Under the pieces are notes generated by a model, which did not search any database, was not told the DNA's origin, and saw only the letters and a program-made list of their open reading frames with translations. A stretch of DNA of 64,000 nucleotides from Aquirufa beregesia (GTDB lineage Bacteria; Bacteroidota; Bacteroidia; Cytophagales; Spirosomataceae). Numbering within the stretch: position 1 is the first letter of the stretch; each line of letters begins with the position of its first letter. The stretch spans positions 1 to 64,000 of the forward strand of contig NZ_SEWW01000005.1 in NCBI RefSeq assembly GCF_011090385.1, given 5' to 3'. The translations under genes and the position numbers were made by a program. This document shows positions 4,960 to 58,870 of the stretch, in pieces.

Positions 4960-6357
4960 TTATTTAAATATGCTTTTTCCTTTGGTCAATTTCTCTATTT
5001 CAGCTACAGTTCTTGGAGAACCTGCGGAAAGGTTGATAGGTGTATTTTGAGTCACCAAAATATCATCTTCAATTCTTACACCAATATCCCACCATTTTTT
5101 ATCGCAATTGCTTCCTGCTGGAATATAAATACCTGGTTCTACTGTCAACACCACGCCTGCTTCCAAGACTCTAGGTCCCATATCATGCACATCCAATCCC
5201 AAATGATGGGAGGTATCATGAGGAAAATATTTTCTAGCCTCTTTTTCATTGGCAGCAATGCCCAACTTGATTAAGCCCGCATTAACCACGGCTCTTGAGG
5301 CCGCATCTACACCTGAAAATGGCAAGCCTGCTTTGCAAGCAGCAATACCTGCATCTTGAGCTTGAAGCACGATTTCATAGATGAGTTTTTGAGCCTCACT
5401 GAATTTACCATTGGCAGGAACCGTTCTGGTGACATCGGCACTATATCCGTGATACTCAGCCGCACAATCACTCAGTAATAATTCACCAGATTGGATTTCT
5501 TTTTGATTGGTGATATAATGTAGCACACAAGCATTGCCAGCGGCACCATTGATGCTGGGGTAGCCAGTATATTCAGAACCTTGGTTTTTAAAGTGGTATT
5601 CCATAATGGCCTGAGCTTGAAATTCTTTCATTCCTGGTTTAATGGCCCGCATGACATCATTATGACCTAGTACACTGATTTCGGCGGCTTTTTTAATTAA
5701 GGCAATTTCTTCTGCTTGTTTGATTCCTCTTAATTTACTCATGATTAGCATTGTGGACCGTTGGGATATCGGTTTGTGCTGAGCAACCACTAAGCTGTCG
5801 ACTAGGTTAGCCATACGGGTTAAAGGCTCCTCTCTTCTTTCATATTTACCAAAAATCCCTTCATTTCGATATAGCGAATAGACGGAATCAATTTGGGCAA
5901 AAGGTAGGGTAGTGGCGTTTAGTTTATCGTTAGTGAAGACATTGTCCATCTTACTTTTTTCCTTGTATCCATCCACTCCTAAAATCTTACCTGTCCAAAG
6001 TTCTTTCAATGGATCACGATTTTGTAGGAAAATAAATTCTGTTCCTGTTTTTCCTAATAGGGTAACGGGTTTTTTAAACAGGAATAAAACAGCATTGGGT
6101 TCATCTAAACCTGTTAGGTAGTAGAAGTTTTTGCTTTGTGCATATTGATAGGTTATGTCATTATTGCGCACACGTACTTGAGAAGCAAAAAAGACAGCCA
6201 TACCCTTGTCAGAAATTTTTTCTTTCAATGCAGCTCTTCTGCTAGCATGGAATTCCGGACTCAAATAATCATTGGGATATAGCTGGGGAGATTGTGCTAA
6301 AATTAAGCAAGGACTCACTAAGGCAAATACCAAGAAACAGAATTGGGAGGTCTTCAT
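4960..6357 (-). CDS. pepP: Xaa-Pro aminopeptidase (peptidase M24B), exported
   Basis: The 465-residue protein has an aminopeptidase P N-terminal domain (about 30-170) and an M24 pita-bread catalytic domain (about 210-450). The dinuclear metal ligands are visible: D297 (SDCAAEY), D308 (SADVTRT), H384 (TSHHLGLDVHD), E407 (TVEPG) and E430 (VRIEDD). Unlike the cytosolic E. coli enzyme it begins with a clear signal peptide (MKTSQFCFLVFALVSPCLILAQ), so it should work in the periplasm. It removes an N-terminal residue that precedes proline. All catalytic residues are intact, so activity is expected. Confidence 0.93.
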   Translation of the reverse strand: MKTSQFCFLVFALVSPCLILAQSPQLYPNDYLSPEFHASRRAALKEKISDKGMAVFFASQVRVRNNDITYQYAQSKNFYYLTGLDEPNAVLFLFKKPVTLLGKTGTEFIFLQNRDPLKELWTGKILGVDGYKEKSKMDNVFTNDKLNATTLPFAQIDSVYSLYRNEGIFGKYERREEPLTRMANLVDSLVVAQHKPISQRSTMLIMSKLRGIKQAEEIALIKKAAEISVLGHNDVMRAIKPGMKEFQAQAIMEYHFKNQGSEYTGYPSINGAAGNACVLHYITNQKEIQSGELLLSDCAAEYHGYSADVTRTVPANGKFSEAQKLIYEIVLQAQDAGIAACKAGLPFSGVDAASRAVVNAGLIKLGIAANEKEARKYFPHDTSHHLGLDVHDMGPRVLEAGVVLTVEPGIYIPAGSNCDKKWWDIGVRIEDDILVTQNTPINLSAGSPRTVAEIEKLTKGKSIFK

Positions 6358-45426: not shown

Positions 45427-48279
45427 TCAAAAATTGATAATCTCCCAACTCGGTATTTTCGCTGCACGGTGTTCGCGTTTTAGGATGGCATCTAGTTGTG
45501 GAATTAATTCTGGATGCAGGTCCGCTACATTTTTCTTCTCATATGGATCGTTGTCCAAATCATAAATCTCCCAAGGATCTTGTCTGTTTTTCTTTAAGTT
45601 GGATTTAACTCCTTTCCATTGCTGAATTCTAATGGCTACTTGACCTGTTTTTTCTGGAAATTCAAAATAGATGAAAGGGCGTTGTTTCTGCTCTCCTTTT
45701 TTTAGAATACTGGGTAAAAAAGAGATTCCATCGGTATCGGCAACGTGTTGACCTGTTAACTCAGCTAAAGTGGCCATCATATCATACTGAACCGAAGGTA
45801 AGTGATTTATTTGACCACCTGGGATTACTCCCGGCCAAGAAACGATTAATGGTTCTCTAATACCACCTTCATATACATCTTGTTTCCTTCCTCTTAATCC
45901 AGCAGTGCTTTGGAAGAACTCTGTATCTACTCCTCCCACATCAAAGGTGGCTCCATTATCAGAAGAAAAGAATACAATGGTCTGCTTGTCGATTTTATAC
46001 TTTTTTAAGGCCTCTACGAGTCGCCCAACCTGCGTATCTAAATAGGAAATCATGCCCGCATAGGTAGCTCTGGGATGAGCAGTGGGAGTATATCCTTTTT
46101 TACCTAAATAAGCGCTATCTGGGAAAACCCCAACATAGGGCTTGATGGCTTCATCGGGTGCTTGCAAAGAAACGTGGGGCAGGGGCAATGGTAAGTAGAG
46201 GAAGAATGGCAGGTGTTTGTTTTTTTCAACAAAGCTCAGCGCCTTATCCATCATTTTATCAACCACATATTCTTTGCCTTGGAATTGCTTGAAATCGATG
46301 CCCACTGGTGCACCTTTACCTTGGAATTGATGAACGTTGATGTATTTATTATTCAAGGTATCCCACTTTCCATTTTCCCATAAATGGGTAGTATAGTAGT
46401 TGTGGGCTTGTTTTTGATCCAATAGTCCATAAAAATAATCAAATCCATGAGCATTGGGATTACCCGAACCATTGGCCATTCCCAATCCCCATTTTCCAAT
46501 GGCAGCAGTCTGATATCCGGCATTTTTCATTAATGTACCTAAAGTAAACGTGTTTGCTTCCAGGGGCATTTGACCTCTTTCGGTTTCATCTGTAAAGCCA
46601 CCTAATTCATGGTTTCCCCGAATTTGGGAATGCCCAGCATGCTTTCCCGTTAATAGCATGCAACGTGCAGGGGCGCATACTGGAGCAGAAGTATAGTGTT
46701 GAGTGAATTTAATTCCTTGCTTTGCCAAGGCATCTAGATAAGGTGTTTTGATGATTTTTTGACCATAAGCACCCAACTCCCCATATCCTAAATCATCGGC
46801 ATAAATATAGACCACATTCGGTTTTTTTATACGGCCTATTTCCCGGTTTTCCTTTCCTTTTTTTTGTGTTAAATCATCCCCTAGTTCTTCTCGAGCTCGA
46901 TCCGCTAATAGTAAGAGGTCCTTTACTTTATCTGGATATTTAGCTTGTACGTCATATCGCTCACCTGGATCTCTTCTTAAATCATAGAGCCCCTGAGGAA
47001 CCGGAGCATTTTCATTGACTTGGCCAGCTAAACCATCATTGGCAGGTAAGAAACCTTCATAGGTCCTTCCTGGGTGAGGTAAAACTAATTTCCAATCTCC
47101 TTTTCTAACAGCTTCTAAGTTGTTTCTGCGGTAATAATACAGAAAATCTTTTCTCGGCTCAGCTTGGCTGTCTCCTTGTAAAATGGGCCAAATACTCACG
47201 CCATCAATCTTCTTTTTGGGTAGCTTGGCTTGGGTAGCCTGTGCAATAGTCGGTAGTACATCAATGGCCGCGGCTAGTTTATTGGAAATTTGACCTGCCT
47301 GTATTTTCCCCTTCCAATAGGCGATGAATGGAACTCTTTGTCCACCCTCAAATGAAGTGCCTTTCCCTTCTCTAAGGCCATTGGTTGAACCAGCGTGATT
47401 GCCATAATTTAACCAAGGGCCATTGTCGCTGGTGAAAATGACTAAAGTGTTCTCCTCTAAGTGGTTTTTCTTTAAGGTTTTGATGATTTCACCGATGGAC
47501 CAATCCACTTCCAACATCATATCTCCGTAAAGTCCTTGTTTGCTTTTCCCTTGAAATGCTGGCGAAGCCGCAATGGGAACATGGGGCATGGAATGAGGTA
47601 TATAAACAAAAAATGGCTTGTTTTTATTCTTCTCTATGAATTGTACCGAACGCTGGGTTAATACGCGAGTGATTTGTTCTTGGTCTTTTAAATTTCTCAA
47701 ATAGATGCTTGGCTCATCTCCTTCATATATAGAAAGTACAGGTAAATCTTGCTTATATGCACCCAGTTTGGTGATAGGTTTACCTTCTAAATCCACTGGC
47801 CACATATCATTGGAATAGGGGATGCCTACATATTCATCGAATCCTTGTTGCTTGGGCAAAAACTCTTTTTTGTCTCCCAAATGCCATTTTCCAAACATGC
47901 CCGTTGCGTAGCCTTGATCTTTTAAGATTTCCGCAATAGTTTCTTCATCTGGACTTAATCCAACAGGGGAATTAGGGAATAAGGCTCCCGAAATACCGAC
48001 CCGATTGGGGTAGCATCCTGTTAAAATCCCAGCCCTGGAAGCACTACAAACAGCTTGTGCCGACAAGAAATTGGTAAAACGAATTCCTTGGTTGGCCATT
48101 CGGTCGATGTTGGGCGTTTCATATTGCAGCGCACCATAGCAACTCAAATCTCCGTAACCTAAATCATCCATGAGGATTAAGATGACGTTCGGTTTCTTTG
48201 GTTTGGGTACTTTAGAAAAGCTAACAAATGCAGACAAAAGGGCGATTAATGTGAAAAGTGTATATTTTTTCATAAACAA
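45427..48279 (-). CDS. Tandem double sulfatase (two fused S1-type sulfatase domains), exported
   Basis: The 950-residue protein has one signal sequence (about 1-22) and two complete sulfatase domains in a single frame. Domain 1 (about 28-465) has the metal pair D38-D39, the formylglycine motif C78-S-A-S-R82 and GKWHLG. Domain 2 (about 485-945) has A-D-D-L-G-Y-G (D495-D496), C535-A-P-A-R539 and GKWGLG. The linker is a short charged segment (about 466-486). Single sulfatases are usually near 450-550 residues, so this is a real fusion. Each Cys can be converted to formylglycine by the enzyme encoded at 52249-53391. It likely desulfates a sulfated glycan at two positions or linkages. Confidence 0.93.
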   Translation of the reverse strand: MFMKKYTLFTLIALLSAFVSFSKVPKPKKPNVILILMDDLGYGDLSCYGALQYETPNIDRMANQGIRFTNFLSAQAVCSASRAGILTGCYPNRVGISGALFPNSPVGLSPDEETIAEILKDQGYATGMFGKWHLGDKKEFLPKQQGFDEYVGIPYSNDMWPVDLEGKPITKLGAYKQDLPVLSIYEGDEPSIYLRNLKDQEQITRVLTQRSVQFIEKNKNKPFFVYIPHSMPHVPIAASPAFQGKSKQGLYGDMMLEVDWSIGEIIKTLKKNHLEENTLVIFTSDNGPWLNYGNHAGSTNGLREGKGTSFEGGQRVPFIAYWKGKIQAGQISNKLAAAIDVLPTIAQATQAKLPKKKIDGVSIWPILQGDSQAEPRKDFLYYYRRNNLEAVRKGDWKLVLPHPGRTYEGFLPANDGLAGQVNENAPVPQGLYDLRRDPGERYDVQAKYPDKVKDLLLLADRAREELGDDLTQKKGKENREIGRIKKPNVVYIYADDLGYGELGAYGQKIIKTPYLDALAKQGIKFTQHYTSAPVCAPARCMLLTGKHAGHSQIRGNHELGGFTDETERGQMPLEANTFTLGTLMKNAGYQTAAIGKWGLGMANGSGNPNAHGFDYFYGLLDQKQAHNYYTTHLWENGKWDTLNNKYINVHQFQGKGAPVGIDFKQFQGKEYVVDKMMDKALSFVEKNKHLPFFLYLPLPLPHVSLQAPDEAIKPYVGVFPDSAYLGKKGYTPTAHPRATYAGMISYLDTQVGRLVEALKKYKIDKQTIVFFSSDNGATFDVGGVDTEFFQSTAGLRGRKQDVYEGGIREPLIVSWPGVIPGGQINHLPSVQYDMMATLAELTGQHVADTDGISFLPSILKKGEQKQRPFIYFEFPEKTGQVAIRIQQWKGVKSNLKKNRQDPWEIYDLDNDPYEKKNVADLHPELIPQLDAILKREHRAAKIPSWEIINF

Positions 48280-48377
48280 GGTTTAATGCCCGAATTTAAT
48301 CAATCTATTTGAAATTAATAGTATAGTTAAATAATAGATTATATATTCTTTTATTTTTTATCTTCAATCAAATATAA

Positions 48378-48412
48378 ATGCCTAAGAATGAGATGTTTCC
48401 ATTCTTAGGCAT
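48378..48412 (-). terminator. Terminator-like hairpin of the Rieske/cytochrome operon
   Basis: A perfect 13-bp stem ATGCCTAAGAATG / CATTCTTAGGCAT with a 9-nt loop, 24 nt after the cytochrome stop on the minus strand. A T-rich but interrupted tract follows. Confidence 0.65.
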
Positions 48413-48435
48413 TGTAGGGGTGTTGTCATTGAAGT

Positions 48436-49518
48436 TTAGTTGTTCAAAGCGCCAGCATCTATCCAGGACTTAATCTGGCTAATTTCACAGCTAGAGATTT
48501 TTGTGCTAGCATTGGGCATAGGTACAAAACCTGCACTATGAGTCACTGATCCATACAGCTTACCATTACTAACTACTTTCAAAACATTGGCATGAGTGCT
48601 TAGATCAATACCTGCAGATGCCGCTGTTCCACTATGGCAACCTACGCAATTTGTTTTTAAGATCGTTTGTATTGTGCTAGTAAAGCTAATATTGGTGGTG
48701 ACGCAAGCACTTCCACTGGGCTCACATGAATTATTGAGCGCACCTTGTTTAATCCAATTGAAAATAGCGGTTTTGGTATCAGTATTTAATGGGGCCATAG
48801 GTGGAACAGGCATACGTTCATCATCTGTTCGAATAATACTTTTATATAATTTACTATTAGTAGGATCTCCAGCCCTAACCGATTTCATGATGTTGCTGTA
48901 ATCCGTCAATTGTACTCCTTCTTTTTTACTAATGGCATCATGGCAGCCACTCATGGCACAGTTAGAAATGATAATAGGAAGAATTTTTTGTTGAAAATAC
49001 ACCAAATTTGGATCACAAGTAACCGCTGGAGGATTCACAGGAGGTTCGGTAGGACTAGCTGTAACCACAGGGTTCACGGGGTTGGTGGGATTCAAATTGA
49101 CTAGAATGCTTCCTGAAGGGTAGGAGCCCACAATCCATTTCTTTATAGTGCTTACATCACATTTGGATAAAGTGGTAGTGGCATTGGGCATGGCTGAATA
49201 GCCACTAGCATGGGTAAGGGAACCATACAGTTTCCCATTTTTAATATAGGGTACAATTTTGTCGTAAGTACTAAAATCTACCCCTCCAGATATAATGGCA
49301 CCACTATGGCAAGAGGTGCAATTGTACTGGAGTATAGGCCAAACGGATTTGTCAAACGTGATGGTATTCGTATCACAAGTAGAGGTAGAATTGGGTAATT
49401 CTACCCCAGTATTGTTCCCCGTACCTGTTTGAGTAGCAGGGAGGGGACTGTTTTTATCACTTAGGCAAGCCACCATAAATAAGGTGACTAAGCTCATTAC
49501 AAGGAACTGGTATTTCAT
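48436..49518 (-). CDS. Lipoprotein with three c-type-cytochrome-like domains
   Basis: The 360-residue lipoprotein (lipobox LFMVAC, Cys18) has three repeats. Repeat 1 has C67-T-S-C-H71 with Met110 as likely axial ligand. Repeat 2 has C187-A-M-S-G-C192-H193 (CX4CH) with Met236. Repeat 3 has C291-V-G-C-H295 with Met334. Repeats 1 and 3 are close copies (for example NGKLYGS-x-T-H, MPNA); the middle one is diverged. Proline/asparagine-rich linkers separate them. The family resembles Planctomycete-type cytochrome c domains. It is the last gene of the Rieske operon, directly abutting yceI. A role as outer-membrane- or periplasm-facing electron carrier is inferred. Confidence 0.85.
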   Translation of the reverse strand: MKYQFLVMSLVTLFMVACLSDKNSPLPATQTGTGNNTGVELPNSTSTCDTNTITFDKSVWPILQYNCTSCHSGAIISGGVDFSTYDKIVPYIKNGKLYGSLTHASGYSAMPNATTTLSKCDVSTIKKWIVGSYPSGSILVNLNPTNPVNPVVTASPTEPPVNPPAVTCDPNLVYFQQKILPIIISNCAMSGCHDAISKKEGVQLTDYSNIMKSVRAGDPTNSKLYKSIIRTDDERMPVPPMAPLNTDTKTAIFNWIKQGALNNSCEPSGSACVTTNISFTSTIQTILKTNCVGCHSGTAASAGIDLSTHANVLKVVSNGKLYGSVTHSAGFVPMPNASTKISSCEISQIKSWIDAGALNN

Positions 49519-50070
49519 TTATTTCTTTTGGGTAAACTGTATTTTACTTTTTACTTCAATCACTTCTGCAATTTTTGCAAATACAATTTTGGGTATGTCA
49601 ATTTGATAATCTTGTAATCGAATGTCAAACTGGCTACTCAATTGTAATTGGTTCCCATCTGAAATGATGGTTCCTTTAATTTCAATGGGTTTAGTAACAC
49701 CATGTATATTGGCAGTACCAGTGGCCGTTACGGGATATGTCCCTGCCTTTTTTAGATCTACCGCTTCTTTGATTTTTCCCTTAAATGAGGCCATGGGGAA
49801 TTTTTCACTTTCTAAATAGTTCTCGTTAAAGTGTTCCTGCATGAGCTTATTAGGGAATACAAATGAGGTAATTCGCATTTGTACCGCAATTTCGTTGGTT
49901 GCTACATTGATGATGCTATTGACACTTTTAGACAAGGCATCAATATTTTCTAAAGGAGTTTTAGAAAAAAAGGAAATCTCACCACTTTGAGCTTGGTACA
50001 ATTGAGCCTGGGCAGTATAGGATATCGCCACAGCGCACATGAGCAAAGTTGCTATGAATAAACGTTTCAT
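49519..50070 (-). CDS. YceI-family periplasmic lipid/isoprenoid-binding protein
   Basis: The protein is about 183 residues from the ATG at 50070, chosen because it begins a signal peptide (MKRLFIATLLMCAVAIS...QAQ) and follows the previous stop by 7 nt. The longer open frame to 50154 overlaps the upstream gene. YceI features include the S-G-E-I-S-F-F-S start of the barrel, MASFKGKIKEA, the G-T-A-N-I-H-G-V-T-K segment, and a final K-S-K-I-Q-F strand. Family members bind polyisoprenoids such as ubiquinone precursors in a lipocalin-like barrel. Among Rieske and cytochrome genes, a quinone-like ligand is a reasonable guess. Confidence 0.88.
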   Translation of the reverse strand: MKRLFIATLLMCAVAISYTAQAQLYQAQSGEISFFSKTPLENIDALSKSVNSIINVATNEIAVQMRITSFVFPNKLMQEHFNENYLESEKFPMASFKGKIKEAVDLKKAGTYPVTATGTANIHGVTKPIEIKGTIISDGNQLQLSSQFDIRLQDYQIDIPKIVFAKIAEVIEVKSKIQFTQKK

Positions 50071-50077
50071 ATAGGGG

Positions 50078-51013
50078 TTATTTGTGTGTTTTTTTTGCTT
50101 CTGGATCAAAACTGAATGTCCTAGCGATATTGAATCCATAAAATATGTCTCCATTCGCCCATGTACCCGTTGTTTGACCTATAAAATGCTTTTCAATCAT
50201 TCCTCGGGAATTAGAGAAGTGCAATTGAAATACGTGTCCTCCCGTTTCAATATCAAAGCCTAAGGCAAATGAATCATGATATGGGTATACTTCACCTGAT
50301 TTAGCTAGGTAAGCATTTTGATCAACCAAGTTTTTGTAATATTCGGCTGATATACTCAAGCGATTACTCAATTTATACCTCCCTCCAAATCCAAGAGAAG
50401 CAATGTCATTGTTGTGATAAGTGGACTCACTTAGATTGTTATGTAAAATAGTGGGCATAACTTGTAAGGAAAGCTTTTCATTCATCTTCCGAGCGATTAA
50501 TACTTGCCCTACATAGCTTTGTCTTTGTTGATTAGTATAAAAACGCATCAAGGTACCACTCGACATGGTATATCCGGTAGGCATGGAATTAATGACTAAA
50601 CTTCCATAAGCCGCCACACTAACAGGCATTTGGTTAGATTGCCTCAGTATCTTGTATTTGGTATAAAAGTCATAGCTTTTTTCAATGGAGGAACGACCAG
50701 CTCCTAACAACCATTGATCGGTGATACCATATTCAAGCCCCAGTCGGATTCGAGCTTCATCCAAACCAAAAAAGTTTTCTAAAAATCCAGAATTGACAGC
50801 ACCAAAACGGTGAGATATCCAAAAATTTAAATGCTTTTTGGCGATAGTCTCCATAGTTTGTCCGTTGATTAAACGAGAACCTTTGAAGGTAGCTTGGGTA
50901 TACACTTTATCTTTGGATGCTTCTTTATCTAGCATGGCCATCAAATCATCTTGGGCCATAGAGGCATAACCCATACCACTTAAGAAGAGCAGTAGGAAGG
51001 ATATTTTCTTCAT
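50078..51013 (-). CDS. DUF5777 family outer-membrane beta-barrel protein
   Basis: The 311-residue protein has a signal peptide (ending GYASMAQ) followed by repeating amphipathic strands characteristic of a 12-14-strand barrel. Conserved DUF5777 blocks are KHLNFWISHRFGAVNSG and FGLDEARIRLGLEYGITDQW, with YYKNLVDQNAYLAKSG near the C-terminus. Family function is unknown. It starts 12 nt after the Rieske gene and ends 7 nt before yceI. The constant company of electron carriers makes a conduit or receptor in the outer membrane worth considering. Confidence 0.85.
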   Translation of the reverse strand: MKKISFLLLFLSGMGYASMAQDDLMAMLDKEASKDKVYTQATFKGSRLINGQTMETIAKKHLNFWISHRFGAVNSGFLENFFGLDEARIRLGLEYGITDQWLLGAGRSSIEKSYDFYTKYKILRQSNQMPVSVAAYGSLVINSMPTGYTMSSGTLMRFYTNQQRQSYVGQVLIARKMNEKLSLQVMPTILHNNLSESTYHNNDIASLGFGGRYKLSNRLSISAEYYKNLVDQNAYLAKSGEVYPYHDSFALGFDIETGGHVFQLHFSNSRGMIEKHFIGQTTGTWANGDIFYGFNIARTFSFDPEAKKTHK

Positions 51014-51025
51014 AGGTATGTTATT

Positions 51026-51487
51026 TTATGAGAATACTCTCAGGTTAGTGCCTGTTAAGGCTGTTTTATAAGTAGTTAATCCTCGGGCCCCTTCTGCATT
51101 CAGGCCTTTTCCATTAATGTCATACATGGCGCCATGTACCGAACAATTGAAGCCACCATTGGCATAACTAATGGCCACATTTCCCTCGTGGGAACAAACT
51201 TGGGTCACCGCCGAAAAGGTAGTTGAGTTGACACGAACTACCACGATTTGATTGACAATGACAAAACCATCTGGACTATTCAATTTGGAATAATCGGTTT
51301 TGGTTAGGTCTAGTGTAAAGTCGACACCCGTAGCCGGAGTACCCGGTTTTACATTCGAAGAAGGCGTAACATTTTCTTCTTTTGAACAAGAACTTAGGCC
51401 GGAAGCAGCACAATAAACTGCCATGAGCGAGGCTCCTTTGAAGCCTAATGACTTCAAGAATTCATTTCTGTTAAGATTGGTTTTCAT
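51026..51487 (-). CDS. Rieske [2Fe-2S] lipoprotein 1
   Basis: The protein is about 153 residues from the ATG at 51487. It begins with an R-N-E-F-L-K-S-L-G-F segment and a lipoprotein-like signal ending GLSSC. The cluster ligands are C98-S-H100 and C115-S-V-H118, with a 14-residue spacer. Both disulfide cysteines of high-potential bc1-type Rieske proteins are missing, so a lower-potential, ferredoxin-like centre is expected. It is a paralogue of the adjacent gene at 51574-52008. An alternative start 5 codons upstream (51502) is less likely. Confidence 0.85.
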   Translation of the reverse strand: MKTNLNRNEFLKSLGFKGASLMAVYCAASGLSSCSKEENVTPSSNVKPGTPATGVDFTLDLTKTDYSKLNSPDGFVIVNQIVVVRVNSTTFSAVTQVCSHEGNVAISYANGGFNCSVHGAMYDINGKGLNAEGARGLTTYKTALTGTNLRVFS

Positions 51488-51573
51488 ACTATTATAGAAC
51501 ATTAAGGGTTATTAAATGGCTAATGTTAAATAATCTTTTTGAAAATCAATGTTAATTTAGTAGAAATATAGAA

Positions 51574-52008
51574 TTAGGAGTAAACTCTCAATGAATTTCC
51601 AGTTAATGTTGTTTTGTATGCAGTTAAGCCTCTGCTCCCATTGGCATTTAATCCTTTTCCACTAGTATCAAATGTAGCACCATGCTCAGGACAATAAAAT
51701 CCACCACTACTGTAGATGACGGCGGATCGTCCTTCATGGGAACAAATTTGGGTAACTGCTGCAAATGCGGTGCTTGACACGCGAGCAACGACTACATTTT
51801 GGGTCACCACATATGAACCAACGTTATTGAGTTTTGAGTAGGCAGCCTGACTCAAATCTAAGGTGAAATCTGCAGAGGAGGAAGGGGTAATTCCTGTTTC
51901 ATTTTTACATGAACTTACTGCAGAAGCACCGCAATACACCGCTACCAATGAGGCACCTTTCAATCCTAGGGATTTCAGGAATTCATGACGTTTTATTTTA
52001 TCCGACAT
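51574..52008 (-). CDS. Rieske [2Fe-2S] lipoprotein 2 (operon leader)
   Basis: The 144-residue protein is a paralogue of the next gene: RHEFLKSLGLKGASLVAVYC, lipobox-like AVSSC (Cys34), and cluster ligands C89-S-H91 and C106-P-E-H109. It shares the C-terminal GLNA-x-G-x-RGLT-x-YKT block with its neighbour. It is first in a five-gene minus-strand unit, 86 nt before the second Rieske gene. A TAGTTTTG promoter with an inverted repeat lies just upstream. Two different Rieske proteins in series suggest an electron relay. Confidence 0.85.
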   Translation of the reverse strand: MSDKIKRHEFLKSLGLKGASLVAVYCGASAVSSCKNETGITPSSSADFTLDLSQAAYSKLNNVGSYVVTQNVVVARVSSTAFAAVTQICSHEGRSAVIYSSGGFYCPEHGATFDTSGKGLNANGSRGLTAYKTTLTGNSLRVYS

Positions 52009-52033
52009 AGATGATTAAAGGGTTTAACTTTCT

Positions 52034-52078
52034 CAAAACTAATCAATCAAACGATTGTTTTATCTGATGATTATCATC
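52034..52078 (-). promoter_or_regulatory. Promoter and operator candidates of the Rieske operon
   Basis: The -7 box TAGTTTTG (52041 to 52034) fits the consensus, 26 nt before the ATG. Directly upstream are two inverted repeats: CAATC-AAAC-GATTG (52044-52057) and GATGAT-T-ATCATC (52066-52078), either of which could be a regulator site. Confidence 0.5.
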
Positions 52079-52248: not shown

Positions 52249-53391
52249 ATGAAATTAATTTTGAGGGGTACTTGGCGGAGAAATCTTTTTATGTTTTTGA
52301 TCATGCTGAGCATGCCTTTTTATGTGTTGGCACAGCTTAGTCAGCGTCAAAAGGATTCATTAGCAGCTTGTCATGTACCATTACCTTCCAAGAGGGGATT
52401 TGTCAAGGCTAATTTGGTTCAAAAAAATCAGGCTAAAGCAGCGGTAGTGTTAGGAATGAAAAAAATCCCAGCGGGAGTATTCGATATGGGAGCACATGAT
52501 GAAAAAGGACGGACAGATGAGTATCCCGTTCACCGAGTGGCAGTGAAGTCCTTTTGGATGGATGAAACAGAAGTGACCAATGCTCAATTTGCGGCTTTTG
52601 TTTCTGCAACGGCTTATGTAACTACAGCAGAAAAGGCAATTTCTTGGGAGGAATTGAAGAAACAAGTACCTGCAGGCACACCTCGTCCACCCGATTCTTT
52701 ATTAGCCCCAAGTTCTTTGGTTTTTGTTCCTACAACGGGTCCAGTCAATTTAGTGGATTATAGTCAATGGTGGCAATTTGTACGAGGTGCTGACTGGCGC
52801 CATCCAGAGGGGCCACAATCATCTATTGTCGGTAAAGAAAATCATCCTGTGGTACAGGTCTCTTGGGATGATGCTCAGGCCTATGCTCGATGGGCGGGTA
52901 AACGATTACCTACAGAAGCTGAATGGGAATGGGCTGCTCGTGGTGGACTGAAGAATCTAGAGTTTCCATGGGGTTCTGAGCCCATTGAATCAGGTGTTTT
53001 TAAAGCCAATACTTGGCAAGGTAAATTCCCTTATAAGGATGAGGCTAAGGATGGATACCAACATACCACGGCTCCTGTAAAACAATTTGCAGCCAATGGT
53101 TTTGGATTATATGATGTAGCTGGCAATGTCTGGGAATGGTGTTTCGATAATTACCGTCATGATTATTATACTACGTTAAAAAAGAGGGGGGCTCTTGTGC
53201 AAAATCCGAAAGGACCAGTTAAGAGCCATGATCCTGATGAGCCTGGTATACCTAAAAAAGTGATGCGTGGGGGCTCCTTTCTCTGTAATGATTCCTATTG
53301 TGCTTCCTATCGCAGCTCAGCCCGCATGAAATCAAGCCCAGATTCTGGTCTCATGCATACGGGCTTTCGCTGCGTGAAAGATGTTAATTAG
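52249..53391 (+). CDS. Formylglycine-generating enzyme (sulfatase-modifying factor, SUMF1 type), exported
   Basis: The protein is about 380 residues from the ATG at 52249, which starts a signal sequence (about 1-29, ending YVLAQ); the frame is open upstream to 52174. It follows the FGE fold: G-x-F-x-M-G start, W-M-D-E-T-E-V-T-N, RLPTEAEWEWAARGG, NVWEWCFDNY, and the active-site block GGSFLC346-NDSYC351-ASYRSSAR, which has both catalytic Cys residues known from human FGE (C336/C341). Many bacterial homologues lack these; this one is complete, so oxygen-dependent conversion of sulfatase Cys to formylglycine is expected. It is divergent from the Rieske operon. Confidence 0.93.
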   Translation: MKLILRGTWRRNLFMFLIMLSMPFYVLAQLSQRQKDSLAACHVPLPSKRGFVKANLVQKNQAKAAVVLGMKKIPAGVFDMGAHDEKGRTDEYPVHRVAVKSFWMDETEVTNAQFAAFVSATAYVTTAEKAISWEELKKQVPAGTPRPPDSLLAPSSLVFVPTTGPVNLVDYSQWWQFVRGADWRHPEGPQSSIVGKENHPVVQVSWDDAQAYARWAGKRLPTEAEWEWAARGGLKNLEFPWGSEPIESGVFKANTWQGKFPYKDEAKDGYQHTTAPVKQFAANGFGLYDVAGNVWEWCFDNYRHDYYTTLKKRGALVQNPKGPVKSHDPDEPGIPKKVMRGGSFLCNDSYCASYRSSARMKSSPDSGLMHTGFRCVKDVN

Positions 53392-55828
53392 TGTTTTTTA
53401 CTCGACCTTTTTCAGCATCCAACCCCGTACTTCTATCGCGAGCCTCTTTGATGCTGGAATTACCAAAACGATAACTAAAGTTTAAGCGAACGACCCGGGT
53501 CTCTCCTCTACTTTTAACAAATACATCTAAATCGGCATATTTAATGCTGGCATTGGGGATTTGGGTGTAAAGGATATCACTGGCATTCAAGCGGAGTGTA
53601 CCCTTTTTATTCAAAATGGACTTCTGAATACCAAGATTGAGGGCTCCACCCGATTGGAAATTAAACGCTTGTTCTAGTCCACCCGTAAAGTATTGTCCAC
53701 CTACTTCTATTTTTACATCATGTTTCAAACTAAAGGTATGATTTGAATTTACATACAGCATGTTTCCCATGGGATTTATGGAAGTTTGATCTAGTTTTCC
53801 AGTCAATTCAACATGATTTAAATAAATGTCGGTATTGCTTGTCCACCAAGATTTAATCGGAATGGGTAATGAAAAACCTAAACTATAAGTCACCCTTTGG
53901 GCTAAGTTATCTGTCGTTTGGTAGGTCACTCGCTTTTCTGTGTCTTGTTTAAGTAATTGGGTGATGACCTGATCCGTATGACTATATGCCAAGGAAGTGG
54001 TATAAGCCCCGGCATAAGTATGGGTGAATTCAAATGAATTGGTTAATTGTGGCAACAAATTTGGGTTACCAACTTCATAATTGTAATTATCTATGTAAAA
54101 GATAAATGGATTCATGGAGTTGTATTGAGGGCGGTCAATGCGGCGACTGTATTTAAGGCCTAAATTATGTTTTTTATTGGCCTCAAATTGGAGAAATGCA
54201 CTGGGGAAAACTTGGAAATAGGAGCGATTGAAACTAGAATCAGGCACATCTGACATGTAGGAGATGGATTTTCCTTGAGCGATGGTCCATTCACCTCGTA
54301 ATCCCAATTGGTAACTCCATTTGCCTAATTTTCTATCTTGATTGATGTAAGCCGCATGGATTTGTTCATTGTATTGAAATCGATTGCTTAATTGATGGAG
54401 GAATGTATAGGAAGGATTTTCTTTGATACGACTACTAAATTGTAAATCATTGTCTGTCTTGACCAAACTGGATTTAATGCCCATTCCCCATTTGGTGGTT
54501 TTATTTACAGGAAGGACAAAATCTGACTTGAAGGAATATTGGTCAATATTGGACAATGATTGTGTGCGAATGAGGGAATCACTTTTTATTGGAGTATTGT
54601 TTGACCCAAACCATTGAGTTAAATATGCATTGGAGCTTTGATCATGAAAACGAGCATAGTCTAAGTCAATTGTTAGTTCTTTCCCTGTGCTGTCATAACT
54701 ATGTTTGTAATTGAAATTATTAGCTAGGTTAGTAAATGGATTGTCTAAGTCATTATAGGTGTCCAATTGACTTAACAGTTGATTGTTTAAATTTCTTTGT
54801 GTAGTACGGTTGATGCCCTTATACAAATTGGTTTGACTTCTACCTCCTGATATGAGAAGTCCCAGTGTTGTTTTTGGGGAATAGGTCCAGTCTACACCTG
54901 CTTTTAATTGGGTATTTTGGGCGATGAAATTGTAGAAGGAATTCGAATTCCAAACTTCCCCTTGCTTGGCGAATTGACGCGTAATATCAATGGTATTCAT
55001 GTTGGGTTGATGAACATAGGATCCATTACTAAACCAATTCCAGTCATTTTTTCGGTAATTGAGATTAAAACCGGCTCTGCCTCGTGTATAAAATCCTTGA
55101 CCTAAGGTAGCATTGACAGAGCCATTCATGCCCATTTGAGAATTTTTTTTGAGTTTGATATTTAGAATTCCAGCGGTGCCAGCAGCATCGTATTTGGAAG
55201 AAGGATTACTGATGATTTCCAATTGAGCAATTTGATCAGCTCCTAGATTTCGCAAATAATTGTTGAGATCATTCCCCGTCAAATAGGAAATTTTTCCATC
55301 AATCATCACTTTGGCTCCTTGCTTACCTCGAATACTGATATTTCCATCTTTATCTACCATAACACCTGGAGATTTTTCAATGACTTCCATAGCCGAATTT
55401 CCTGCGGCCATGACTGAGTTTTCTACATTGACCACCGTTTTATCAACTAAATTTTCGATAAAGGGTTTAATTGCTTTAATTTCTACATTGGCTAATTCGG
55501 TAGAGCTGGGTTCAAGTTGGATCGTACCTAGATCAATTTGGCTATTGGTTTTTATTTCATCCAATTTAATCACACGTGTCTGGTAGCCCGTTGATTGAAT
55601 TTTAAGGGTAAAACGGCCAGTAGGTAAATTCTGAGCCTGTAAAATTCCATTTTCATCGGAGATAAAGCCCTTGATTAAACTGGAGTCAACATTTTTTCGA
55701 AGCAATAGGGATGCATAAGGGACAGCTTGTTTTTTTTCGTCTATAATTTTGGCCTTTAAACTCGATTGTCCAAACGTAGTCAGTTGTATTAAAATAAGGC
55801 ATAGGGTTGTTAATAAGAGGTTTTTCAT
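53384..55828 (-). CDS. TonB-dependent receptor with carboxypeptidase-like N-terminal domain (paralogue 1)
   Basis: The 814-residue protein has a signal peptide ending LTTFGQ, a carboxypeptidase-regulatory-like domain (about 22-110), a TonB plug (about 120-230, V-M-A-A-G-N-S-A-M-E-V-I-E-K-S-P-G-V) and a large barrel (OMP_b-brl_3 type). It ends with the aromatic-rich R-L-N-F-S-Y-R-F and a short charged tail. It is a tandem paralogue of the gene at 56093-58540, alignable end to end. It overlaps the FGE gene by 8 bp at the 3' ends. Substrate unknown, possibly siderophores, peptides or glycans. Confidence 0.9.
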   Translation of the reverse strand: MKNLLLTTLCLILIQLTTFGQSSLKAKIIDEKKQAVPYASLLLRKNVDSSLIKGFISDENGILQAQNLPTGRFTLKIQSTGYQTRVIKLDEIKTNSQIDLGTIQLEPSSTELANVEIKAIKPFIENLVDKTVVNVENSVMAAGNSAMEVIEKSPGVMVDKDGNISIRGKQGAKVMIDGKISYLTGNDLNNYLRNLGADQIAQLEIISNPSSKYDAAGTAGILNIKLKKNSQMGMNGSVNATLGQGFYTRGRAGFNLNYRKNDWNWFSNGSYVHQPNMNTIDITRQFAKQGEVWNSNSFYNFIAQNTQLKAGVDWTYSPKTTLGLLISGGRSQTNLYKGINRTTQRNLNNQLLSQLDTYNDLDNPFTNLANNFNYKHSYDSTGKELTIDLDYARFHDQSSNAYLTQWFGSNNTPIKSDSLIRTQSLSNIDQYSFKSDFVLPVNKTTKWGMGIKSSLVKTDNDLQFSSRIKENPSYTFLHQLSNRFQYNEQIHAAYINQDRKLGKWSYQLGLRGEWTIAQGKSISYMSDVPDSSFNRSYFQVFPSAFLQFEANKKHNLGLKYSRRIDRPQYNSMNPFIFYIDNYNYEVGNPNLLPQLTNSFEFTHTYAGAYTTSLAYSHTDQVITQLLKQDTEKRVTYQTTDNLAQRVTYSLGFSLPIPIKSWWTSNTDIYLNHVELTGKLDQTSINPMGNMLYVNSNHTFSLKHDVKIEVGGQYFTGGLEQAFNFQSGGALNLGIQKSILNKKGTLRLNASDILYTQIPNASIKYADLDVFVKSRGETRVVRLNFSYRFGNSSIKEARDRSTGLDAEKGRVKNTN

Positions 55829-56092: not shown

Positions 56093-58540
56093 TTAATTGG
56101 CACTTTTTACGCGATCTTTTTCAGCATCCAAACCGGTATTTCTAACACGAGCACCTTTGACAGCTGTATTCCCAAATCGGTAAGTGAAATTGAATCGAAC
56201 CACACGAGTATCATTTCTATTTTTCACGGTTATATCGATATCTCCGTATTTGATTGTTGCCATTGGGTTTTGGGTGTATAAAATATCGCTGGCATTTATA
56301 CGAATGGTTCCTTTTTTGTTCAAGACTGTTTTTTGAATACCTAGGTTTAATGAACCACCAGGGCCAAAATTAAAGGCTTGTTCCAATCCTCCTGAGAAAT
56401 ATTGTCCGCCCAATTCTAATTTAATATCATTTTTTAAAGTAAAGGTATGGTTCGAGTTGATGTAGAACATATTTCCTGCGGAATTGATTTGTGCTTGATC
56501 CACTTTACCTGTTAATTCATTGCGATTCAGTTGGATATCTGTATTACTTGTCCACCATTTAGTCACTGGGATTGGCAAGGAGAAACTTAAGTTGTAAGAA
56601 GTTCTTTGAGCCAAGTTGGCGGAAGTCTGATAGGTTTTACGGGCTTCTGTATCTTGTCTCAATAATTGAGTGATCACATCATCGGTATGACTATATCCAA
56701 AAGTGGTATTAAATGCTCCCTTGAATGTATGAGTTAATTCAAATGAATTGGTTAACTGAGGCATCAACATCGGGTTACCCACTCGATAGGTATAGTTGTC
56801 TAGGAAGAAAACGAATGGGTTTAAGTCGGAATAACCTGGACGATTAATTCTACGGCTATAGTTTAAACCTAGGGTATGGTTTTTGTTTGCTTCATATTGA
56901 ACAAAAGCACTTGGGAATAGTTGTTTGAAGTCGCGGTGGAAGGATGAATCCGAAGCAGCATTTCCATAAGCCATGGATTTTCCATCAGCAATGGTCCATT
57001 CTCCACGTAAGCCTATTTGATAGCTCCATTTGCCCAATTTACGTTCCGTATTTAAGTAAACAGCGTGAATTTGCTCTTCGTACATAAAGCGATTGCTTTG
57101 TTTGTTTAAGAAAGTATAATCCGCATCGCTGGCTGTTTTTCCTCTGAATTGAAGGTCATTATCTGTTTTTACATAGCTGGATTTTACTCCCATACCCCAT
57201 TTGCTATTTTTGTTGATCGGTAATACATAATCCGATTTGAAGGAGTATTGGTCAATGTTGGATAATGCGCCAGTGCGTAAAAGAGAATCATTTTTGATTT
57301 TATTAAATTCAGAGCCATACCATTGTGTCAAATAATCATTTTGATTATTATCTACGTAGCGAGCATAATCTAAATCTATCGTCAATTCTTTTCCAGTGCT
57401 ATCCAATGTATGTTTAAAGTTGATGTTATTGGCAAAGTTATGGAATGGATTGTCGATGGAATTATAAGTATCTAATTTACTCATGATGGCGTTGGTAGCC
57501 AGATTACGTTGCGTAGATTGATTCAAGCCATTGTTTAAGGTTGTTTGGTTTAAGCCTCCTGAGAATAAAATTCCTACGGTTGTATTTTTGTTGACTGACC
57601 AGTCTGCTCCTACTTTCATGGAAGTGTATGTGCCTTTGAAGGGAAAATCGGTGGTGGAATTCCAAACTTCATTTTGGGCACGGAAGTAACGAGTGATGTT
57701 ATTGTGCTGTAAGTTATTCCGTCCAAAATAGGAGGCATTTCCAAAAATGTTCCAGCCATTATTGCGGTAGTTTAAGTTTAAACCTGCACTAGAACGAGTA
57801 TATACTCCTTGGCCGATGGTACCATTTACGGACCCATTCATGCCCATATTCACATTCTTCTTCATTTTGATATTGATGATACCTGCAGTACCTGCTGCAT
57901 CATATTTAGAAGAAGGGTTGGTCATGATTTCCAATTGAGAAATTTGATCGGCAGAAAGATTGCGTAAGAAGTTGCTCAAATCGTTACCAGATAAATAGGA
58001 TATTTTACCATCAATCATGACTTTGACACCTTGTTTTCCTCTCAAGCTGATGTTGCCATCTTTGTCGACAATAACCCCTGGAGAACGCTCTAATACTTCC
58101 ATGGCAGAGTTACCAGCTGCCATAACGGAATTTTCTACATTGACCACGGTCTTGTCTAATTGTCTTTCGATAAAAGGTTTGGTCGCTTTGACTATGACCT
58201 CATTTAGTTGAGTGGAAATGGGTTCAAGGGCAATAGTTCCTAAATCCAATTGGGTATTGGCATTGACTTCGCCTAGTTTTTTGGAATAAGCTTTATAACC
58301 AGTGAATTGAATTTTTAAGGTATAGTTTCCTTGGGGTAAAGCGGCGGCTTTTAATTCACCGTTTTCATCGGTGATAAATCCTTTTACTAGGGTGGAATCA
58401 CTTGCTTTTCTTAATAATACAGAAGCAAAAGGAACAGGCTGATTTTTTTCATCTCGGATTTTAGCTGAAAGTCCGTTATCGGCAAATGCGAGGAGGGGGG
58501 CAATAATAGAAAATAGGGTAGATAAAATAAAAGTTTTCAT
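56093..58540 (-). CDS. TonB-dependent receptor with carboxypeptidase-like N-terminal domain (paralogue 2)
   Basis: The protein is 815 residues from the ATG at 58540, which begins a signal peptide (MKTFILSTLFSIIAPLLAFA). The frame continues to 58663 but without signal-like sequence, and it crosses a TAGCTTTG -7 box at 58641 to 58634. Domain order matches its neighbour: carboxypeptidase-like domain, plug with V-M-A-A-G-N-S-A-M-E-V-L-E-R-S-P-G-V, barrel, and a C-terminal R-F-N-F-T-Y-R-F. The two proteins are almost equal in length and share long blocks, so they arose by tandem duplication. A 264-nt gap with a terminator separates them. Confidence 0.9.
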   Translation of the reverse strand: MKTFILSTLFSIIAPLLAFADNGLSAKIRDEKNQPVPFASVLLRKASDSTLVKGFITDENGELKAAALPQGNYTLKIQFTGYKAYSKKLGEVNANTQLDLGTIALEPISTQLNEVIVKATKPFIERQLDKTVVNVENSVMAAGNSAMEVLERSPGVIVDKDGNISLRGKQGVKVMIDGKISYLSGNDLSNFLRNLSADQISQLEIMTNPSSKYDAAGTAGIINIKMKKNVNMGMNGSVNGTIGQGVYTRSSAGLNLNYRNNGWNIFGNASYFGRNNLQHNNITRYFRAQNEVWNSTTDFPFKGTYTSMKVGADWSVNKNTTVGILFSGGLNQTTLNNGLNQSTQRNLATNAIMSKLDTYNSIDNPFHNFANNINFKHTLDSTGKELTIDLDYARYVDNNQNDYLTQWYGSEFNKIKNDSLLRTGALSNIDQYSFKSDYVLPINKNSKWGMGVKSSYVKTDNDLQFRGKTASDADYTFLNKQSNRFMYEEQIHAVYLNTERKLGKWSYQIGLRGEWTIADGKSMAYGNAASDSSFHRDFKQLFPSAFVQYEANKNHTLGLNYSRRINRPGYSDLNPFVFFLDNYTYRVGNPMLMPQLTNSFELTHTFKGAFNTTFGYSHTDDVITQLLRQDTEARKTYQTSANLAQRTSYNLSFSLPIPVTKWWTSNTDIQLNRNELTGKVDQAQINSAGNMFYINSNHTFTLKNDIKLELGGQYFSGGLEQAFNFGPGGSLNLGIQKTVLNKKGTIRINASDILYTQNPMATIKYGDIDITVKNRNDTRVVRFNFTYRFGNTAVKGARVRNTGLDAEKDRVKSAN

Positions 58541-58870
58541 TAGGCGGATTGAATTATTTTTTGGTTGTAAACAGAGAATGAGTCGTAGATGCAAACAAGA
58601 ACCCAAAGGTTGCATGTCTCTCTTTTGACAATGCAAAGCTATACTAGGTACTTTGTTATACATAGTACTATATGATAAACAATAAAATGTTTTGGATGAG
58701 TGGTAAATAGCAAGGGCAAAATGTAAAATGCCTGCCTTGGTTATGGAAAATTGGATATCAATAAATTGGACTATAGATATGAATTCTCATTCGTTTGGCA
58801 TGTAAAAAAACAACGCTGGCAAGGTTCTAAACCTTGCCAGCGTTGTTTCAAACAATCCTAAAATGTTGCT
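58541..58870. other. 330-nt intergenic region between sugar dehydrogenase and TonB receptor 2
   Basis: No gene is seen. It contains the minus-strand -7 box TAGCTTTG (58641 to 58634) for the receptor, a short ATAGTACTAT palindrome at 58662-58671, and hairpin repeat copy C at 58808-58848. Confidence 0.6.
58808..58848. repeat. Palindromic hairpin repeat, copy C (extended stem)
   Basis: Core arms AACGCTGGCAAGGTT (58812-58826) and AACCTTGCCAGCGTT (58830-58844) around a CTA loop, extended to a 19-bp stem by AAAC/GTTT. Compared with copies A and B, one T-A pair is changed to G-C in both arms, which preserves pairing. It lies 23 nt after the sugar dehydrogenase stop. Confidence 0.9.

Follow-up and report, generated by a model that had tools for sequence, protein, structure and literature searches.

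A recurrent Bacteroidota gene set joining a DUF5777 beta-barrel, a YceI lipocalin and exchangeable one-electron carriers

Why would a bacterium encode two Rieske iron-sulfur lipoproteins, an outer-membrane barrel, a YceI lipocalin and a heme lipoprotein side by side, and do these genes belong together at all? The question is raised by five minus-strand genes at 48436-52078 of a 64,000-nucleotide stretch of Aquirufa beregesia (assembly GCF_011090385.1, contig NZ_SEWW01000005.1, positions 1 to 64,000 of the forward strand), hereafter the window. Gene neighbourhoods show that many Bacteroidota retain a DUF5777 barrel in linkage with a one-electron carrier and a YceI subfamily. The genes very probably form one module, and its task is probably redox work at the outer membrane.

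The operon begins with RieskeB, a Rieske [2Fe-2S] lipoprotein of 144 residues (51574..52008; PF00355, 8.3e-8), followed by RieskeA, a second Rieske lipoprotein of 153 residues (51026..51487; PF00355, 1.2e-7), the DUF5777 outer-membrane beta-barrel of 311 residues and 12 predicted strands (50078..51013; PF19089, 8.8e-89), a YceI lipocalin-like protein of 183 residues including its signal peptide (49519..50070; PF04264, 4.4e-15), and a cytochrome lipoprotein of 360 residues with three c-type heme motifs (48436..49518; PF07635, 1.4e-13; PF13442, 2.3e-9). From RieskeB to the cytochrome the intergenic gaps are 86, 12, 7 and 0 nt, so that coordinates and Pfam matches bear out the compact five-gene set of the original prediction. 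The RieskeA start was taken at MKTNLN, 15 nt after the start in the open reading frame (ORF) list, and the YceI start at MKRLF, the listed start lying further upstream, within DUF5777.

DUF5777 is present in 153 of the 395 Bacteroidota genomes sampled (152 above the curated cut-off), is absent from all 14 control genomes, and occurs once in the window's genome. To characterize its surroundings we used 80 DUF5777 regions, mostly of 15 kb, from 58 other genomes (several from one genome), a non-random set hand-picked from the listed matches for spread over genera, with genes called by a simple longest-ORF script. Seventy-eight were scored, the gene picker having lost the DUF5777 ORF in L084 and L124, both of which contain module-type YceI matches, and L001-L030, whose genomes were sampled again later, were excluded from the counts. 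Within 2.5 kb of DUF5777 on either strand, YceI occurs in 59/78 regions, a one-electron carrier of any kind in 69/78, and one or the other in 76/78. The carrier is a module-type cytochrome in 61/78, a Rieske protein in 8/78 (including L112, where the second half of the Fe-S motif is disrupted, and leaving aside the Rieske-labelled ORF of L110, a 4Fe-4S protein caught through its leader) and a cupredoxin in 2/78, in one of which (L137) it is the sole carrier. A tRNA_anti-like protein of the PF12869 type, an OB-fold, with a hydrophobic N-terminus (e.g., L092, 6478-6867) lies equally near in 20/78. Since 40 genomes yielded 215 YceI matches, roughly five for each genome of some 4 Mb, we estimate that less than 1% of barrels would have a YceI gene this near by chance.

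The linkage holds across many family groups despite changed gene order, the orders seen including cytochrome-YceI-DUF5777, DUF5777-cytochrome-YceI and Rieske-DUF5777-YceI. Among 43 loci assigned to Cytophagales by title, Rieske genes lie beside DUF5777 in 41 (L061 has only a Rieske fragment of 66 residues and L071 has none) and YceI in 39, the contig ending inside or just behind DUF5777 in the four loci that have no YceI. Algoriphagus loci lack a module cytochrome and carry DUF5777, YceI and (except L061) Rieske. On four plasmid records, each from a different named species, DUF5777 is likewise encoded together with an annotated YceI and a profile-detected module-type cytochrome, the best place in each record being the one examined (the Hymenobacter record has a second). 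The original prediction was to fall if DUF5777 showed no recurrent linkage to Rieske, YceI or cytochrome genes; the counts and the plasmids contradict that outcome clearly, and the neighbourhoods support its idea of a conserved redox gene set that recurs and includes an outer-membrane barrel. Against five close loci (four from named Aquirufa species and one from a metagenome-assembled genome titled Cytophagaceae), 25 gene comparisons gave 23 pairwise ratios of nonsynonymous to synonymous change (dN/dS), all within 0.02-0.10; dS was not computable for the remaining two. By phylum-wide recurrence and low dN/dS, the gene set is more than a chance arrangement.

Some copies have regulatory genes alongside. 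In the Emticicia oligotrophica plasmid the order is sigma factor, outer membrane protein (OMP), Rieske, DUF5777, YceI and c-type cytochrome; near the 78 scored barrels, extracytoplasmic function sigma genes occur in 10 regions and OMP-type, possibly antisigma, genes in 11. Such neighbours may suit an envelope response. Genes for a sigma factor and a protein with a barrel-like C-terminus adjoin the module in L089, L107, L128, L137, L152, L153 and L208, the C-terminus being a Pfam match below cut-off in L137 and annotated as outer membrane beta-barrel in L208; our guess is that these proteins are antisigma-barrel fusions. On the Hymenobacter volaticus plasmid (L209), cytochrome, YceI, DUF5777 and one hypothetical gene are followed by a truncated hemoglobin and hemA.

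What varies between loci is the carrier. The usual one is a small cytochrome c, mostly with one motif, against Rieske in 8 regions and cupredoxin alone in one: in L137 a plastocyanin/azurin-type cupredoxin (5864-6286; PF00127, 8.3e-14) occupies the cytochrome position, ahead of YceI and DUF5777. The original prediction had treated Rieske centres as the distinctive feature, a view that gives way here, since the partner is usually cytochrome c and Rieske is but one of three carriers that exchange. Placed on a quick maximum-likelihood tree of 87 DUF5777 proteins, the carriers require at least three switches between Rieske and cytochrome; the tree comes from a short search and has 23 open forks, so the number describes this tree and should not be taken as a history. 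The Rieske label was given to L036 and to the rows that have both a Rieske protein and a cytochrome (the window, L034, L047 and L074), and YceI-only, cupredoxin-only and none-labelled rows were left out of the count. The best explanation for heme, Fe-S and copper replacing one another at a single operon position is that the partner requires a one-electron carrier whatever its cofactor; the conserved property would then be one-electron transfer. No ORF picked in L031-L153 matches two of the families, so gene fusions offer no evidence of contact.

The window's cytochrome reads as CTSCH, CAMSGCH and CVGCH (CX2CH, CX4CH, CX2CH), each motif followed some 40-50 residues later by an M-P that is a candidate iron ligand; sequence and Pfam matches (PSCyt1, Cytochrome_CBB3) thus agree with the predicted lipoprotein with three heme-c-like motifs. 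Its YceI neighbour scores 56.8 bits against a Pfam cut-off of 23.7 and belongs to the family, and its model (predicted local distance difference test, pLDDT, 86.5) matches BcnB, BcnA, E. coli YceI and TT1927b at a template modelling (TM) score of about 0.7, some of these solved folds, TT1927b among them, being titled polyisoprenoid-binding. YceI proteins adjacent to DUF5777 score at least 112 bits on a profile of their own kind, save one 68-bit fragment at a contig end, and the three YceI matches that these regions have far from DUF5777 reach 36-82 bits, which suggests a dedicated subfamily, on a profile that was built from module members and hence favours them.

The two Rieske proteins, 57% identical to each other, lack the disulfide cysteines of bc1 Rieske subunits (CTHxGC...CPCH), as the original prediction had read them. 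The same cysteines are absent from 52 of 54 sequences with an intact motif in our collected Rieske set (n=57, including two strays, L037 122-835 and the 4Fe-4S protein of L110), the exceptions, L138 and L149, lying on a distant branch. On the NCBIfam model Rieske_proteo the window proteins score 23.7 and 28.0 bits, below the cut-off of 97.4, and with the cysteines absent we reject a bc1/b6f Rieske subunit. The closest solved chain to RieskeA is 5cxm (E 2.5e-9), deposited as 'Cytochrome b6/f complex iron-sulfur subunit' and which we take to be Synechocystis PetC3, a plasma-membrane Rieske protein of unclear role; RieskeA differs in being a predicted lipoprotein within an outer-membrane barrel operon and in its absent disulfide cysteines.

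RieskeA has the lipobox LSSC and RieskeB VSSC, and a loose lipobox scan found the lipid cysteine in 55 of the 57 set sequences. Both leaders resemble those of twin-arginine translocation (Tat) with one arginine at the twin site, that of RieskeB reading KRHEFLK, and close relatives of RieskeB turn up in leader and motif scans. Across the set the second twin-site residue is N, H, M, L, K, G or Q in 55 of 56 patterned leaders, the sole RR belonging to the 4Fe-4S stray of L110, so the leaders lack the twin arginine; Tat export of the Rieske proteins may still occur, and TatC is present in the window's genome.

The barrel itself scores 297.4 bits against a Pfam cut-off of 23.1 over positions 1-247 of the 247-position profile and is clearly a DUF5777 member. 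Its AlphaFold2 model has 12 strands and a weak N-terminal part (mean pLDDT 73.4, predicted TM score 0.71); Foldseek matched it to FapF, OmpG, NanC and other porin-like barrels at TM scores of about 0.4-0.5, and no solved relative was found by sequence search. It contains zero cysteines. Fourteen columns are conserved in at least 96% of 87 sequences (Q21, F43, H68, F70, G71, G83, Q125, P130, T257, H260, F262, G293, F294 and R298), with no recognisable cofactor site among them. We considered a site formed by H68 and H260, conserved in 98%, and make no claim for it, because the two lie on different strands of a medium-confidence model. Neither DUF5777 nor PF19089 is named in any paper of the open-licence PubMed Central (PMC) literature searched, and the parts of that literature covered contain no description of the DUF5777/YceI/carrier module, in line with the earlier view of an undescribed system.

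What task could such a module serve? The closest likeness is the BcnA/LcoA pair of Burkholderia, in which a YceI-family lipocalin of the envelope is genetically linked to a dedicated electron donor. PMC9113575 reports increased lipid peroxidation when BcnA (YceI) or LcoA (b561) is mutated, and its authors propose that a lipocalin-bound quinone is re-reduced by b561. The module described here differs in having cytochrome c, Rieske or cupredoxin as donor and in adding an outer-membrane barrel. The window's genome has no match to PF01292 (b561-type) at E <= 0.001, which sets aside the BcnA/LcoA pair proper; since YceI is present, with carriers and barrel in place of PF01292, we read the module as serving a BcnA/LcoA-like task with another electron supply.

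By this analogy, the lipid-anchored carriers (two Rieske proteins and the three-heme lipoprotein) would draw electrons from the periplasmic end of respiration, dock on the DUF5777 barrel at the outer membrane, and there return a quinone or another isoprenoid inside the YceI lipocalin to its reduced state. Loaded YceI would then quench lipid peroxyl radicals of the outer membrane, and the barrel would anchor the assembly and open the membrane or the surface to the lipocalin. A candidate source of electrons is alternative complex III (ACIII): the window's genome holds an ACIII gene set with an adjoining COX2-like gene, CcsA-type cytochrome c maturation genes, and three Rieske matches, namely RieskeA, RieskeB and one beside a nitrite/sulfite reductase-type gene, so that no bc1-type Rieske protein was found there. 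Gene identity, linkage, carrier exchange and predicted folds come from sequence comparison and structure prediction, and beyond these we infer an outer-membrane location, complex formation, a quinone ligand, a direction of electron flow and lipid protection. We put the probability of this lipid-protection mechanism, the reading we prefer, at roughly 35%. If true, it would be the first working hypothesis on what this widespread outer-membrane barrel does, show how the outer membrane might receive electrons, reveal one place at which heme, Fe-S and copper carriers form a natural exchange series, and make the role of YceI lipocalins directly testable in Bacteroidota.

Several observations weigh against lipid protection. 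Bacteroidota, as is generally known, use menaquinone. The quinone reported in YceI structures, in contrast, is ubiquinone-8, according to PMC9113575. The Burkholderia scheme needs no barrel, and the fold matches of DUF5777 are only generic porin-like ones. A b561-family gene is also present in 8 of 10 genomes tested, which means that the module does not simply take the place of b561. Nineteen of the 78 regions have no nearby YceI, which is therefore not essential to the barrel-carrier pair; 9/78 have no detected carrier, and 2/78 have neither. Ligand, redox or phenotype data were found for no module member.

All ten DUF5777 proteins of one starred tree branch are among the 19 regions without nearby YceI. 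NrfD and 4Fe-4S genes lie alongside in seven of the ten (L082, L095, L108, L110, L114, L132 and L142), where the set comprises a small cytochrome c, DUF5777, a 4Fe-4S protein (PF13247), NrfD (PF03916) and an unnamed protein of ~290 residues; a short Tat-like peptide accompanies these genes in most of the seven, as does a second cytochrome c, and in some an EB_dh or six-CXXCH lipoprotein is encoded upstream. Counted over the ten, EB_dh lipoproteins occur in 5, six-CXXCH proteins in 2 and a further small cytochrome c in 8. One member of each Fe-S, NrfD, EB_dh and other cluster was checked against Pfam, the remaining members being assigned by BLAST clustering and the six-CXXCH proteins by motif counts. 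The gene content suggests a quinone-linked chain that extends to the outer membrane, and what the set has in common with the YceI branch is the barrel and a small cytochrome lipoprotein.

This shared core is the best argument for a different function, in which DUF5777 and its lipid-anchored carriers would pass electrons between periplasm and surface, to or from an external acceptor or donor, with one carrier on each face (e.g., RieskeB inside and RieskeA outside). We consider such a port unlikely. The NrfD branch favours it, with a probably quinone-reactive set adjoining in 7/10 and hexaheme or EB_dh lipoproteins in several. So does RieskeA, whose mature N-terminus, C-S-K-E-E-N (51371-51388), the same in five close relatives, fits the pattern C-X-K-(D/E)2-X, a lipoprotein surface-export signal measured in Capnocytophaga according to PMC5080379; RieskeB does not have C-S-K-E-E after its lipid cysteine. 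Similar charged residues, however, follow the lipid cysteine in many other lipoproteins of the genus and of a few other relatives, in a comparison that mixed SusD proteins with neighbouring lipoproteins. We therefore reject the signal as proof of a surface-located Rieske protein and keep it as a lead.

The barrel argues against a port. Outer-membrane conduits of the MtrCAB and PioAB type likewise pair an outer-membrane barrel with lipid-anchored heme proteins, but MtrB/PioB barrels have about 26-28 strands, and the 12 predicted here are too few to enclose a multiheme protein. The operon's only heme protein has three motifs and no deca-heme, and MtrB/PioB-family barrels (PF11854) were absent in 9/9 genomes tested, the window's included, and on barrel size, the missing PF11854 match and the lack of a multiheme wire we reject a decaheme-style conduit. 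The window's barrel also offers no cysteine, and the conserved columns no recognised cofactor site. Cyc2 resembles the module in that most relatives combine a small barrel with a small, mostly one-motif cytochrome; its barrel has 16 strands, against 12 predicted strands here with barrel and cytochrome encoded as separate genes, and with no cytochrome-barrel fusion in L031-L153 or the window we set Cyc2 aside as well. The porin-cytochrome conduit of the original prediction thus survives in part: the NrfD branch suits a chain ending at the outer membrane, and the barrel, with its 12 predicted strands, is too small for a multiheme protein inside it. It is doubtful that DUF5777 with a lipid-anchored heme, Fe-S or copper carrier makes up a new class of 12-strand outer-membrane electron port widespread in Bacteroidota. 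Were it so, the NrfD branch would have the port as the last member of a quinone-linked chain (NrfD, Fe-S protein, cytochrome c), serving hexaheme or EB_dh lipoproteins at the surface, and would represent a route of extracellular electron transfer not recognised so far; in the YceI branch the port would serve a quinone-carrying lipocalin.

The porin-like matches also raise the idea of a substrate channel, in which the barrel would admit a small solute or lipid for YceI to bind and for the carrier to oxidise or reduce. FapF, OmpG, NanC and the other Foldseek matches are channels or porins, and charged residues are invariant in several predicted DUF5777 strands among 41 close relatives. The exchange of three cofactors, on the other hand, argues against a catalytic carrier, and among the 45 commonest neighbour clusters (ten neighbour proteins Pfam-checked) we noticed no recurrent catalytic enzyme, so that we hold a substrate channel to be distinctly improbable. 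Least probable of all, small cytochromes and Rieske proteins being common as carriers and the genome having its ACIII genes notwithstanding, is that these are ordinary periplasmic respiratory carriers merely sharing an operon with unrelated envelope genes; against it, the linkage holds over many family groups despite changed gene order and occurs on plasmids.

The claim that one promoter drives the five genes is not established. Sigma-70-like promoter matches number 10 against 14.2 expected, with none ahead of RieskeB, and one TANNTTTG, a Bacteroidota promoter motif, lies at 52041-52034 against a window total of 75 matches for 79 expected; the two-box form has no match near the operon start. 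Behind the cytochrome, the last gene, lies a terminator-like hairpin of 15 pairs (48377..48413, minus strand). The G+C content of the operon equals that of the window (0.39 each), which gives no sign of recent acquisition by composition, although plasmid copies exist in other species, and a phage origin was set aside with no match in the phage collection.

Beside the cytochrome end of the operon, a single ORF of 950 residues (45427-48279) contains two sulfatase-domain stretches, and a sulfatase-modifying-type gene lies on the opposite side (52249-53391). Beyond it, at 53384-55828 and 56093-58663, are two similar adjoining ORFs that read as outer-membrane receptor-like proteins.

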